Shown one piece after another: positions 4,169 through 12,093 of a DNA stretch of 36,943 nt (position 1 is the first letter of the stretch; each line of letters begins with the position of its first letter). The DNA is taken from the NCBI GenBank assembly GCA_028820655.1, contig JAPPIK010000022.1, positions 45,668 through 82,610 on the forward strand, written 5' to 3'. The DNA is from Candidatus Poribacteria bacterium (lineage in GTDB: Bacteria; Poribacteria; WGA-4E; JAJDTR01). Made by a program: the position numbers and the translations under genes. The notes under the pieces were generated by a model that did no database searches, was not told the origin of the DNA, and saw only the letters and a program-made list of their open reading frames with translations.

Positions 4169-6475
4169 TTACTTTCCGACCAACATCTTTCGAGTGGTGG
4201 TGAAACTACTCGCGGTTAACGTGCAGAAATAGAGGCCACTGGATACAAACTCTCCCTGTTGATTGCGCCCGTCCCAATATGCCGCCCGGTTGCGGCTATG
4301 ATACATGCCCGCAGGTTGATGTCCCGCCGCCAACGTCCGAACCCTCTCCCCGTTCATATCATAAATCGTCAACACCACGTCTGCCGGTGTTTCCAACTGA
4401 TACGGTATCCACGTTTCCGGATTGAACGGATTCGGGTAGTTCGCCAAGAGTGCCGTTTGGCTAGAAGGCAATGGAGTGGCTGAAGGCGAAAGTTGCACAG
4501 CTTGCCTTGCACCATCCGTGATGGCTGCGTGCTTAACATTTCCCCAAGTCGTGACACGTCTAAGGTCCCACAGTAGAATCGTGCCGTCGTAACTCCCGCT
4601 GACAAGTGTACCTCCATCAGGCGAAAACGCAACAGTATTTACTGCGCCCGTATGCCCCTCAAGTGTCCGCTGGTGTTCGCCGGTGCGGACATTCCACAAG
4701 CGAATCACACAGTCTCTCGCACCGCTGGCAAGGGTACCTCCATCAGGCGAAAACGCTGTCGTAAACACTGGTCCTTTGTGTCCGTTAAGCGTCTGCAAGT
4801 GTTCGCCAGTGCGGACATTCCAAAAGCGAATTTTATAGTCTCCACTACCGCTTGCAAGGATACCTCCGTTGGGGGAGAACGCTACGGAATATACCGGACC
4901 CTTATGTCCGCTAAGCGTCTGAAAGTGCCCGCCGGTATTGGCATTCCACAAGCGAATCGTATTGTCCCGACTCCCACTGGCAAGTGTGCTCCCATCAGGG
5001 GAGAACCCTACGAAACTAACCTCATCCGTATGCCCCTCAAGGGTCTGCAGGTGTCGTCCGCTGCCGGCGTGCCACAACCGGATGGTGGAGTCACTCCAGC
5101 CCTTGTTGCTGAGAAACACGCCCCCGCTGCTGGCAAGTGTTCTGCCATCGGGCGAAAACGCTACGTAACAGAATAAATCCACATCTACCTTCAAGGTCCG
5201 TTTGTGTCGTCCGTTTCGGGTACCCCACCTCCGAATTGTGGAGTCTCTCCAACCTCCGCTGCTCGCAAGTGTTGCGCCATCAGGTGAAAACATCATCGAA
5301 CTGACAAAACCCGTATGCCCCTCAAGGCTCCTCAGGTATTGTCCGTTGCGAAGATACCACAACCGAACGGTCATGTCCATACTTCCGCTGGCAAGCGTTC
5401 TCCCATCCGGCGAGAATGCTAGGGAAATAACTTCACCCGTATGTCTCTTAATAGTCTTCAGGTTTTGTCCGGAGCGGACATTCCACAGTCGAATGGTGGA
5501 GTCATTCCAATTGTCCCATATAGCAAACCAGCCTCCGCTACTAGCAAGCGTTTTCCCATCCGGCGAGAACGCCAGGGAATTAACGCCCCTCACATGTCCA
5601 TCAAAGGTTTGCAAGTGTTGCCCGGAGCGGGCATCCCACAATCGGACCGTAGGGTCTCTGCGCCCTCCGCCGCTGGCAAGCGTGTCTCCATCGGGAGAGA
5701 AAGCTACAGATGAAACCTCAGCCTTGTGCCCCGACAGGGTTTTCCGGAGTTCCCCGGTGGAGGCATTCCATAAGCGAATCGTACCGTCCATGCCACCGTT
5801 AGCGAGTGTGTTCCCATCAGGCGAAAATGCTACGGAAAGAACGCTGTAACTATGCCCCGAGAAAGTAAGGCGGTGTACCCCGGCGTGGGTGTCCCACAAC
5901 CGGATGGTGCTATCCTTACTCGCACTCGCGAGTGAAAATCCGTCGGGTGAGAATACTAAGCAATGGACCAGCGAGGTATGTCCCTTGAGAAGCTTTCGAT
6001 GCACACCGGCGTGAACATCCCACTACCGTAGACTGCTGTCCACGCTCCCACTCGCAAGTATGCTCCCATCAGGTGAGAACGTTACGGAAGTAACGGAATT
6101 CGTGTGTCCCTCAAGGGTCCGCAGATGTACACCGGTACGGGCATTCCAGAGTCGGATTGTCGTGTCCCCGCTCCCACTGGCAAGGGTGCGTTCATCCGGC
6201 GAGAACGCTACGGAAGTGGCAAATCGCGTGTGTCCTGTTAGCAGGGCGATTTCAGCGCCTGTGGCTGCATCATAGAGCCAAATTCCGATTCCACCTGCAA
6301 CCGCGAGCCGAGTTCCGTGAGGCGAATAGGAAATTTCGGCGATTGCACCTTTGCCAAGGCGCGCTATGGCGCTTTCGGGCAGATTCGATTGGGTTAGATC
6401 TTCGGCAATGCTACTCTGAATGAACAGAGCAACAACGGATAAAAGGCTAAGGATGACACTTAAAGTGTTCCTCAT
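4169..6475 (-). pseudogene. secreted 14-blade WD40 protein, interrupted by an amber codon
   Basis: One reading frame of 768 codons plus stop, broken only by TAG at 6025-6023. The start is ATG 6475 with AAGGAG upstream (around 6485-6490), followed by a Sec signal peptide (MRNTLSVILSLLSVVALFIQ...IAED). Fourteen WD40 repeats of the form VAFSPDGxTLASGS...IRLWN...LxGH follow, enough for two seven-bladed propellers. The C-terminal ~90 residues form a FlgD-like domain (NYPNPFNPETWIPYQLE ... WDGRNQQGE ... RKMLVGK), the type used for surface targeting or anchoring in this kind of organism. The amber codon is in the third repeat, where SLR-stop-WD replaces the usual IRLWD; a single TTG to TAG change explains it. 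The frame is otherwise clean, so the mutation is recent, is read through, or is a sequencing error. Re-initiation at GTG 6004 would give a protein without a signal peptide. Confidence 0.9.
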
Positions 6476-9853: not shown

Positions 9854-10159
9854 TCCGAGTCCTCATAAAATAGTATCAAATGACCTGATGATGGCAGAAA
9901 TGCCCATTTTCATTGAGTTTGAGCCATCATCAAATGAGCGATCTAGGATGACTGAACCAGCAAATCCTTCAAGAAATTCATGCGACTGGATAGAAACACG
10001 ACGAAAGTATACCAAAAAGGGGATCGCATTCCGAGTTAATGTTAAAAGAGTTTAAAGAAAGTTTGACGTGTTTTGCCAAGTAAAGTTCTAGGCGATATTC
10101 GTCTCATTGTGTCATTGCCGGTTTCCCGTAGGTATGGAACTCGACAGCACGGTGTTATC

Positions 10160-11017
10160 TTAGCTGTTTTCCGAGTTGCTTGCCAAGTCTGCGTCAATGT
10201 CGTTCAGCGCATGTTGAGGAATTAGGTCGAGATATTGAGAGATGACGCGCTTGGAAAGTTTGGTAATCTGAGAGATTTTGTCAATATCATCGGTAGCGGT
10301 GCGAACAAGCTTAACAGACTCATAATCATGGATGTATCGGTCAACAGCTTCTTTGGAGTGCTTGGTCTTAGCAGCAATGGTCGGAGTCAGATGCCCTTGT
10401 AGATAAAGGGTGATAATCTCTTTCTTGTGGGTAATTGCCGCTGACAAATCGTGAATGTTGCCACGAGTGGGCAAGACTTTTCCACTGGTGCTTTGCCACT
10501 CATTGACATACTCACTCACCACCGGATCTCGGACGTTGAGCAACACAGCAAGGTCTAGTTGAGTCAACAATGCACCTTGGTCATAGGCTTGATAACACCA
10601 TCGCACCAATCGATGAATTCTGAGTTCACGGGAGCTGAAGTCGCTGTAATAGTGTTCAATGTCCTCGGGGGCGAGAAAGCTTAAAACCACAGGCTTCATG
10701 CGGGTTTTAACGATTGACTTCCCTTTCTGTGGATATTCGTCAATCGGCACGGCCATCCAAACCAATTGACCATAGCTAAGCATTCGTTCATTAGGGAGTT
10801 GTTCCCCGGAGGCTAGTTTATCAAGTGGCAAGCGAATCAGGAAATAGTCTTCGATGGTTTTGACGATGTCATCGACAATGGCTTTGGCAGTCACTTCGCC
10901 TTTGTCATACCCATAGGAATTGATAAAGCGATGAATCAGCAATTGTCGCAGTGATTTGTCATTGATGCGTCTGATTTTCTTCTCGTTGATTTCAGTGCGA
11001 GTCAATGGTTTACTCAT
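10160..11017 (-). CDS. DUF1670-family protein (second gene of the pair)
   Basis: 285 residues. ATG 11017 overlaps the stop of the upstream gene in an ATGA junction and is preceded by GGGGGAG, so translation is probably coupled. The C-terminal half shows DUF1670 features: LPTRGNIHDLSAAITHKKEI, then LYLQGHLTPTIAAKTKHSKEAVDRYIHD, then a third segment ISQITKLSKRVISQYLDL. The last two look like helix-turn-helix units, and a winged-helix-like segment (LLTQLDLAVLLNVRDPVVSEY) precedes them. This implies DNA binding. The N-terminal ~110 residues have no recognisable fold. It is a diverged paralogue of the neighbour, sharing YDQxALL and the RG-x2-HD-x5-HK pattern. DUF1670 has no established function; a transposition or regulatory role is inferred from the inverted repeats. 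Confidence 0.85.
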   Translation of the reverse strand: MSKPLTRTEINEKKIRRINDKSLRQLLIHRFINSYGYDKGEVTAKAIVDDIVKTIEDYFLIRLPLDKLASGEQLPNERMLSYGQLVWMAVPIDEYPQKGKSIVKTRMKPVVLSFLAPEDIEHYYSDFSSRELRIHRLVRWCYQAYDQGALLTQLDLAVLLNVRDPVVSEYVNEWQSTSGKVLPTRGNIHDLSAAITHKKEIITLYLQGHLTPTIAAKTKHSKEAVDRYIHDYESVKLVRTATDDIDKISQITKLSKRVISQYLDLIPQHALNDIDADLASNSENS

Positions 11018-11814
11018 GAGTTCTCCCCCTTTTTTTCATCAACGGGTTCGGGACGAAGTAAAGTCGTCATTCGCTCTGTATGTTTGTATTCATCATACAG
11101 GGAGAGGTACTCACGAATCAATCGGTCAGAGAGTTGAGTGATGAGCCGTATCTGTTCCTTTGGAAAGTCCTGATGATGGAGCGTTGCTACCTGAGTGAAA
11201 TTACGCAAGTATCGCGACACGGCACGTTCGGTGTGGTTCGTCTTTTGCTCAATTTCGGTGAATTGATACCCTCTAAAGTACAGTTCCAAGATTTGTGTCT
11301 TATGAGAAATGCCGGGGCCCATATCGTGTTTGGCACCGCGAGTCATTACAAATAACCCTTGCTGTTTCAGCTGTTGGACATCGCGTTTGACGGTTGCCGG
11401 ACTGGTGGTTAATAGCACCGCTAAATCTTCATAGCTGAGCAAGGCATCTTGGTCATAGGCTTGTTTGGTTAACCGTAAGATTCGATGTCGTCTGAGTCCT
11501 GCAAGTCCATAATTGGCTAAGACCTCAAGATCGGTGTGCACGTCATTGAACGTGAGTTGGCAGGAGACCTTTTTGGCTAAGGCAATGTGTTTACCTGCCG
11601 GTTCGTCGGCTGCTACGGCTTCATAGCAGATTTGGCCCGATGTGAGTTTAATATCGGCGTGTTGGGCAAAGTAGGAAGAAATCTGTTTATAGTAGGCTTC
11701 GGCGAGAATAGGCATCAGATTGAAGTCTGACGCAATCTTCTGAATGATTGCCGCTCTCGCCGTCTTTGATTCCAGACGATTGATACCGTAGTGTGAATTG
11801 CTATGTGACTTCAT
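11014..11814 (-). CDS. DUF1670-family protein (first gene of the pair)
   Basis: 266 residues. I choose ATG 11814, not the ATG at 11826, because GGAGG at 11824-11820 lies five bases before 11814. The order of motifs matches its partner: an N-terminal segment RAAIIQKIASDFNLMPILAEAYYKQI, LRRHRILRLTKQAYDQDALLSYEDLAVLL with a winged-helix look (PATVKRDVQQLKQQGLFVMTRG), the DUF1670 core HDMGPGISHKTQILELYFRG, then YQFTEIEQKTNHTERAVSRYL and IRLITQLSDRLIREYL as further helix-turn-helix-like units. Multiple DNA-binding modules and no catalytic triad I can name. The ribosome binding site can pair with the right terminal repeat (see the regulatory entry). Confidence 0.85.
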   Translation of the reverse strand: MKSHSNSHYGINRLESKTARAAIIQKIASDFNLMPILAEAYYKQISSYFAQHADIKLTSGQICYEAVAADEPAGKHIALAKKVSCQLTFNDVHTDLEVLANYGLAGLRRHRILRLTKQAYDQDALLSYEDLAVLLTTSPATVKRDVQQLKQQGLFVMTRGAKHDMGPGISHKTQILELYFRGYQFTEIEQKTNHTERAVSRYLRNFTQVATLHHQDFPKEQIRLITQLSDRLIREYLSLYDEYKHTERMTTLLRPEPVDEKKGENS

Positions 11815-11884
11815 AATGACCTCCATGAGTTAATGGCGATTGATGGGTTTACCAACCGCTTTTAGTTTAGCTCATGAGGTCATT
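11815..11884 (-). promoter_or_regulatory. foldback that can mask the ribosome binding site of the DUF1670 pair
   Basis: On the plus strand AATGACCTCCATGAG (11815-11829) and CTCATGAGGTCATT (11871-11884) are inverted repeats, 14 bp with one bulged base. The first arm contains the complete GGAGG site of the first DUF1670 gene; the second is part of the right terminal repeat. A transcript entering from outside through the terminal repeat would fold and hide the site, while one starting between the arms would not. Similar read-in protection is established for IS10, IS50 and IS200. Confidence 0.65.
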
Positions 11885-11949
11885 TGATACAAACTATAAA
11901 TCACTCATGTTAGGACATACGCAACTACGTATTACCCGTTACGTAGTCC

Positions 11950-12093
11950 AAGTTGCCACCTTTTCCGTGAGGGGCACAGAAACCGAGTTTTTTCCGACGT
12001 GGAAACACGAGGCTGACAAAAAAAACACAAATCTACGTATAATTCATCAATCGTGAATCAAAAACTCGGTTTCTCTGGTATAGGTGGCAACTT
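11950..12093. mobile_element. MITE-like 144-bp inverted-repeat element
   Basis: The left arm begins AAGTTGCCACC (11950-11960) and ends AGAAACCGAGTTTTT; the right arm begins AAAAACTCGGTTTCT (12060) and ends GGTGGCAACTT (12083-12093). Outer blocks of 11 bp and inner blocks of about 15 bp are perfect complements, separated by 17 and 8 unmatched bases respectively. There is no coding capacity between them. It lies just downstream of a PhyH gene and 60 bp beyond the DUF1670 cassette, whose terminal sequences it does not share. Confidence 0.75.

Follow-up and report, generated by a model that had tools for sequence, protein, structure and literature searches.

A two-gene DUF1670 element with terminal inverted repeats and a preferred insertion target in Candidatus Poribacteria

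The window, by which is meant the whole analysed stretch of 36,943 nucleotides from a Candidatus Poribacteria bacterium (assembly GCA_028820655.1, contig JAPPIK010000022.1, positions 45,668 to 82,610), holds at 9870-11899 on the reverse strand a segment of 2,030 bp which is almost certainly a mobile element. Its two genes, both on the reverse strand, are open reading frame (ORF) A at 11014-11826, encoding 270 aa, and ORF B at 10160-11017, encoding 285 aa, with a 4-bp overlap between them. ORF B and ORF A match the Pfam family DUF1670 (PF07900) with E-values of 1e-59 and 9e-63 and 202 and 212 bits, the gathering cut-off being 25. An earlier note on this DNA had described two paralogous DUF1670 genes enclosed by 19-bp inverted repeats as a possible undescribed transposable element. 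The repeats were found as described, at 9873-9891 and 11872-11890 with 18/19 positions matching, but the outer bounds had been set too narrowly. Left ATAG and right CAAACTATAA are common to all copies, and the ends, placed with the help of the other copies and the empty sites, therefore lie a few bases further out, at 9870 and 11899. The left end (LE) ATAGTATCAAATGACC, with the terminal inverted repeat core GTATCAAATGACC, occupies 9870-9885 on the forward strand and the right end (RE) GGTCATTTGATACAAACTATAA occupies 11878-11899 on the reverse strand. Directly 5' of LE stands the AA of the target (9868-9869), the putative crossover dinucleotide, and AA also closes the right side of the element at 11898-11899. 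LE is followed on the forward strand by a subterminal hairpin, TGATGATGGC...GCCATCATCA, at 9886-9932, whose arms were measured at 9886-9895 and 9923-9932, close to the stem first given as 9887-9931.

For the phylum, 85 genomes were profile-searched with PF07900 and each match place was taken with its flanks. The family was detected in 16 of them, and the pair was found between the same ends ATAGTATCAAATGACC and GGTCATTTGATACAAACTATAA in 24 full or nearly full copies from 12 genomes, so that relatives sharing both ends and genes do exist; they sit at many unrelated loci and not in a conserved chromosomal setting. The arrangement of repeats and pair is far beyond chance, and every full copy contains A and B and no other gene. 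Genome G081 holds eight copies, of which one has a disrupted ORF A, and G082 holds five that are mutually 98.6-99.8% identical. L041 and L044, two copies almost 0.9 Mb apart with unrelated flanks, show 100.0% identity along the whole element. The window copy shares 73% DNA identity with the other copies, and the closest named relative of its DUF1670 protein is from the metagenome-assembled genome APA_bin_83 (81% identity); its host genome of 5.9 Mb has this one full copy and one lone right end (G000:C49:4202). The 13-mer GTATCAAATGACC occurs 2-18 times in genomes with an intact pair versus 0-3 times in the remaining tested genomes, and its reversed form was not found in carrier genomes. Contigs break within the element at L118, L119, L121 and L122 in G074 and at L064-L066 in G047, and copy numbers in draft genomes are therefore underestimates. 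No DUF1670 match was obtained in searches of plasmids, phages and IMG/VR contigs. A Methanosarcina control genome has DUF1670; the element comparison was confined to Candidatus Poribacteria.

Empty sites were sought by searching the joined flanks of copies across the phylum genomes. The occupied site of L062 reads ...ATAAGGAA/ATAGTATC...ACTATAA/GTAG..., with slashes at the junctions, and its uninterrupted ortholog L083 reads ...ATAAGGAA/GTAG.... Empty orthologs of the L010 site were found at L085-L089 and L092, and for the copy L048, which interrupts a leucine-rich-repeat gene, an adjacent repeat supplies the uninterrupted text. Insertion therefore takes place after AA and without target duplication, the AA being common to target and element end; the comparison of occupied and empty sites that had been proposed as a check thus yielded exact bounds. 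Two of the marks of an insertion sequence (IS) were found, namely several copies that share the same ends but lie at separate loci, and orthologous sites both occupied and empty. In the same-genus genome G013 the window locus lacks the element and the dehydrogenase gene lies next to the PhyH gene, with an intergenic region too diverged to pinpoint the insertion position.

The target is a 17-nt motif, AARATGNTNATNNNNAA, with 11 fixed positions, of which AAGATGCTGATTCGGAAGTAG is an example. Of the 62 different left junctions, 53 agree with the motif at nine or more of the 11 positions and 40 at all of them. In nearly all copies the flank on the left closes with RKMxIxK codons, and the target is mostly the last codons of type IX secretion system (T9SS) sorting-domain genes, those examined carrying TIGR04183 above cut-off and FlgD_ig. 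It is the sequence that is read and not the identity of the gene, since the insertion in the leucine-rich-repeat gene still matches at 9/11 positions. In G081, G082 and G071 the occupied sorting-domain ends are AAATAG in 21/21 cases, whereas the 82 unoccupied ends are a mix of A and G with about half at each variable position, and the A-TAG is therefore supplied by the element. These first bases restore the lysine and the stop codon, and the target protein is unchanged. Nine of 19 motif-matching gene ends in G081 hold an element or a remnant. With dozens of similar copies per genome, sorting-domain genes can serve as a safe harbour for insertions. Insertion off the motif also occurs, since a miniature inverted-repeat transposable element (MITE) with two good ends, L142, lies at a poor-motif site.

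Derivatives were found by scanning the genomes for the element ends and then fetching the places. MITEs with these ends measure about 370-770 bp, with one more of roughly 92 bp (L117). L098, L113, L142 and L144, from the three genomes G067, G071 and G072, are homologous to each other over their full length, lie in different targets and share an internal structure with a longest frame of 101 aa. Since copies that keep these ends but have lost internal sequence are present at several sites, mobility acts in trans on the ends. The subterminal hairpin is present with differing sequence in the other full copies, and L117 retains it together with the terminal repeats, which are therefore the likely cis sites. 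The relics include left ends cut after 16-20 nt (L100, L106, L107, L112, L114 and L115). Such remnants stand directly 3' of the target AA, some of them at orthologous, otherwise empty sites, and are possibly excision scars. A fixed excision footprint was considered and dropped, because their inner breakpoints differ and such remnants are favoured by the very search pattern used. Relic ends at L108, L126 and other loci, in several genomes, are joined to GCGTAAGTCCT/AGGACTTACGC, another mobile repeat of the phylum, which has a similar stretch near the window element.

Both ORFs are under strong purifying selection, with a ratio of non-synonymous to synonymous divergence (dN/dS) of about 0.05-0.16; between the window copy and L010, dN and dS are 0.126 and 2.3 for ORF B and 0.13 and 1.2 for ORF A. 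The distances of A and B are correlated (Mantel r 0.88, 0/2000 permutations). Profile similarity of the DUF1670 proteins is of helix-turn-helix (HTH) type only, as are the PADLOC matches. No NCBIfam transposase matched A or B, no PDB relatives were found by single-protein or profile sequence search, and a search of 5.39 million full-text papers for DUF1670 or PF07900 yielded none. AlphaFold models built from four sequences had a mean predicted local distance difference test score of 55-62, in which the C-terminal halves are HTH-rich and fairly confident and the N-terminal domain is undefined. With these low-confidence models, Foldseek gave weak HTH-type matches and neither of the RNase H-like and HUH folds for which a structure prediction had been suggested. 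Residues R112, R115, D125, D134, R163, D168, H175, K176, Y183, Y206 and Y240, in the numbering of A, are invariant in A and B, and such shared polar residues could form an active site. The terminal core ATCAAATGA may be a binding site of the DUF1670 proteins.

The DUF1670 pair is probably the mobility apparatus of an autonomous IS-type element, as the copies have no other genes in common and the derivatives are mobilised in trans. The earlier note had left the choice between apparatus and cargo of an element driven in trans; the former is now favoured by the sole common genes, by the finding of no known recombinase gene between these ends in the fetched loci and by the MITEs. Several findings weigh against it. 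Searches by profile, sequence and fold detected no nuclease or recombinase motif or fold in A or B. The window copy's own site, upstream of a dehydrogenase gene, matches the motif at 4/11 positions and was rejected as a motif match, being one of nine exceptions. Two elements of 1.4-1.5 kb with the same ends, L099 (2042-3568) and L103 (582-2020), have a Transposase_31/Rpn ORF in place of the DUF1670 pair, which may be cargo or may have hijacked the ends. The ends are also present in G072 and G079, where DUF1670 was undetected; at the places fetched they flank MITEs and relics and no other transposase gene, which may explain them yet is compatible with another driver. Movement of the element is deduced from the comparison of sequences. 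The MITEs in genomes with no detected DUF1670, the Rpn nuclease gene in two same-ended elements and the purely HTH-type similarity would suit a non-autonomous element, whose DUF1670 proteins were DNA-binding targeting or regulatory cargo and which a recombinase of the host or of another mobile element moved in trans. Such an arrangement is rather unlikely, given that A and B are all that every full copy encodes and that both genes are under strong purifying selection and co-evolve. Among the fetched loci there was also no known recombinase gene between these ends other than the Rpn-type ORF of the two derivatives, and the idea of larger same-ended elements hiding the real transposase was unsupported. 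An ordinary pair of paralogous regulators with inverted repeats by chance, as the HTH units and the missing functional annotation of DUF1670 might suggest, is refuted by the many copies, identical ends, empty sites and target motif, and its probability is negligible.

A further alternative concerns the non-coding left region downstream of ORF B (9870-10159, reverse strand), a candidate small-RNA region with no Rfam match, which in the window leaves 290 bp between ORF B and LE. Nearly all copies have here an outward promoter-like site, TTGACA-N17/18-TGCTATACT, which in L053 is TTGACA-18-TGCTATACT and matches at 11/12 with an extended -10. In the window the extended -10 TGGTATACT, facing the left end at 10006-10014 on the reverse strand, is kept and the promoter scan found the -35 lost or weak. 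Behind the promoter lie 100-140 nt with two hairpins, in which double-sided changes number 13 versus 5.1 in shuffles and pairing stands at 79% versus 26-44% in slid controls, counts that exceed both controls but that kinship of the sequences can produce. One hairpin arm, TGCTGATGTTTATTAG, resembles the target TGCTGATNNNNAAATAG, and this may be due to chance, to a guide function or to a protein-binding site that both share. Taken together, a structured left end with an outward promoter is suggestive of a small RNA, and suggestive only. If that RNA helped to choose the target, as the bridge RNA of IS110 does with unrelated proteins, this could coexist with the DUF1670 pair as the mobility apparatus. 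IS110 likewise has repeat targets and a short shared core and makes its RNA from the non-coding end via a sigma-70 promoter (PMC11208160). RNA-assisted targeting is nevertheless improbable. When hairpin and target were compared copy by copy, no correspondence was seen at the variable positions, and the degenerate positions are not clearly different between occupied and unoccupied sites. Single-sequence folding reaches z-scores of -0.3 to -3.6 on the promoter strand, but the other strand folds equally in several copies and RNAalifold found no stable consensus for the left region. Derivatives without the promoter still spread, the -35 is lost in the window, and transcription from the promoter could alternatively run through a circle junction into the ORFs. 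Less probable still is a single-strand chemistry like that of IS200/IS605, with hairpins read on one strand and insertion 3' of a fixed target. It would agree with the absence of target duplication, with a target adjoining the left end and with the hairpin retained in the smallest derivative, but the terminal repeats are truly inverted, the target motif is 17 nt long, no HUH motif or fold was found and strand-specific selection on the hairpin is weak (wobble bias of 36 versus 21 between strands).

With the DUF1670 pair as the apparatus, an assembly of A and B would use its HTH units to bind the left subterminal hairpin as well as the inverted repeats at the termini, and would recognise the target motif, to which the hairpin arm TGCTGATGTTTAT and the terminal TTTGAT bear a resemblance. 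Strand exchange would take place at the shared AA, possibly with an excised circle whose ends abut as GGTCATTTGATAC-AAACTATAAATAG-TATCAAATGACC. DUF1670 would then either be itself a recombinase with a novel fold or provide the targeting for a system whose enzyme is borrowed from the host, and the chances that it cuts and joins DNA itself are close to even. Slightly short of even is the fuller proposal, a new class of DNA recombinase with two paralogous subunits and no known catalytic fold, inserting without duplication at a 17-nt motif, rebuilding the stop codon and possibly helped by a small RNA. The DUF1670 family hereby gains a testable function. If the two proteins suffice to move the element, they would constitute a recombinase without a recognisable catalytic domain that inserts harmlessly at gene ends, which would interest both enzymologists and those working on targeted DNA insertion.

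A possible promoter of the ORFs was read by eye in the right end, TTGTAT-N17-TAAACT at 11864-11892 on the reverse strand, which is below the promoter-scan thresholds; its putative -10 is TAAACT in the window versus TATACT in most other copies. Near the right end lies a second, unrelated inverted-repeat element of 144 bp (11950-12093) with the ends AAGTTGCCACC/GGTGGCAACTT. About 20 related stretches occur in the same genome, and it is absent from G013 together with the DUF1670 element. Further off, at 4169-6004, the window encodes a WD40-repeat protein of 611 aa with at least 10 repeats.

Among known systems, Tn7 with TnsD uses the 3' end of a protein-coding gene as a harmless and reliable target, and in this the element is alike. 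Insertion of Tn7 however falls downstream of the gene, produces a 5-bp duplication and uses several proteins including the DDE transposase TnsB, whereas the element here directly adjoins the last codon, restores the stop codon and leaves no duplication. IS607, with its serine recombinase, and elements with tyrosine recombinases have a very short shared crossover core and a possible circular intermediate; the short core and possible circle are similar here, and no Resolvase or Phage_integrase domain was detected in either protein. For DDE elements, no DDE/RNase H-fold profile or fold match was obtained, the N-terminal part of the models being of low confidence, and target duplication is absent. 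IS200/IS605 elements share the lack of duplication, the target adjoining the left end and the subterminal hairpin (general knowledge, and PMC6006769); they differ in the HUH (Y1) transposase, not found here by profile and fold searches, and the element has true inverted repeats and a long target motif. The likeness to IS110/IS1111 comprises small size, sequence-specific insertion about a short core common to element and target, a preference for repeated targets and, at a non-coding end, structure and a sigma-70 promoter (PMC11208160). Of the marks of an IS110-type guide RNA, structure and promoter are present and guide-target covariation was not seen. IS110 has one DEDD recombinase, in contrast to two DUF1670 proteins and terminal inverted repeats here, and the profile search found neither DEDD nor Transposase_20 domains in A or B. 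None of the proteins that define the known IS families is present. The best reading is a new IS family, for which an ISfinder entry under another name is possible. Its short derivatives are typical bacterial MITEs mobilised in trans, with the difference that their parent, carrying the DUF1670 genes, is identified here.
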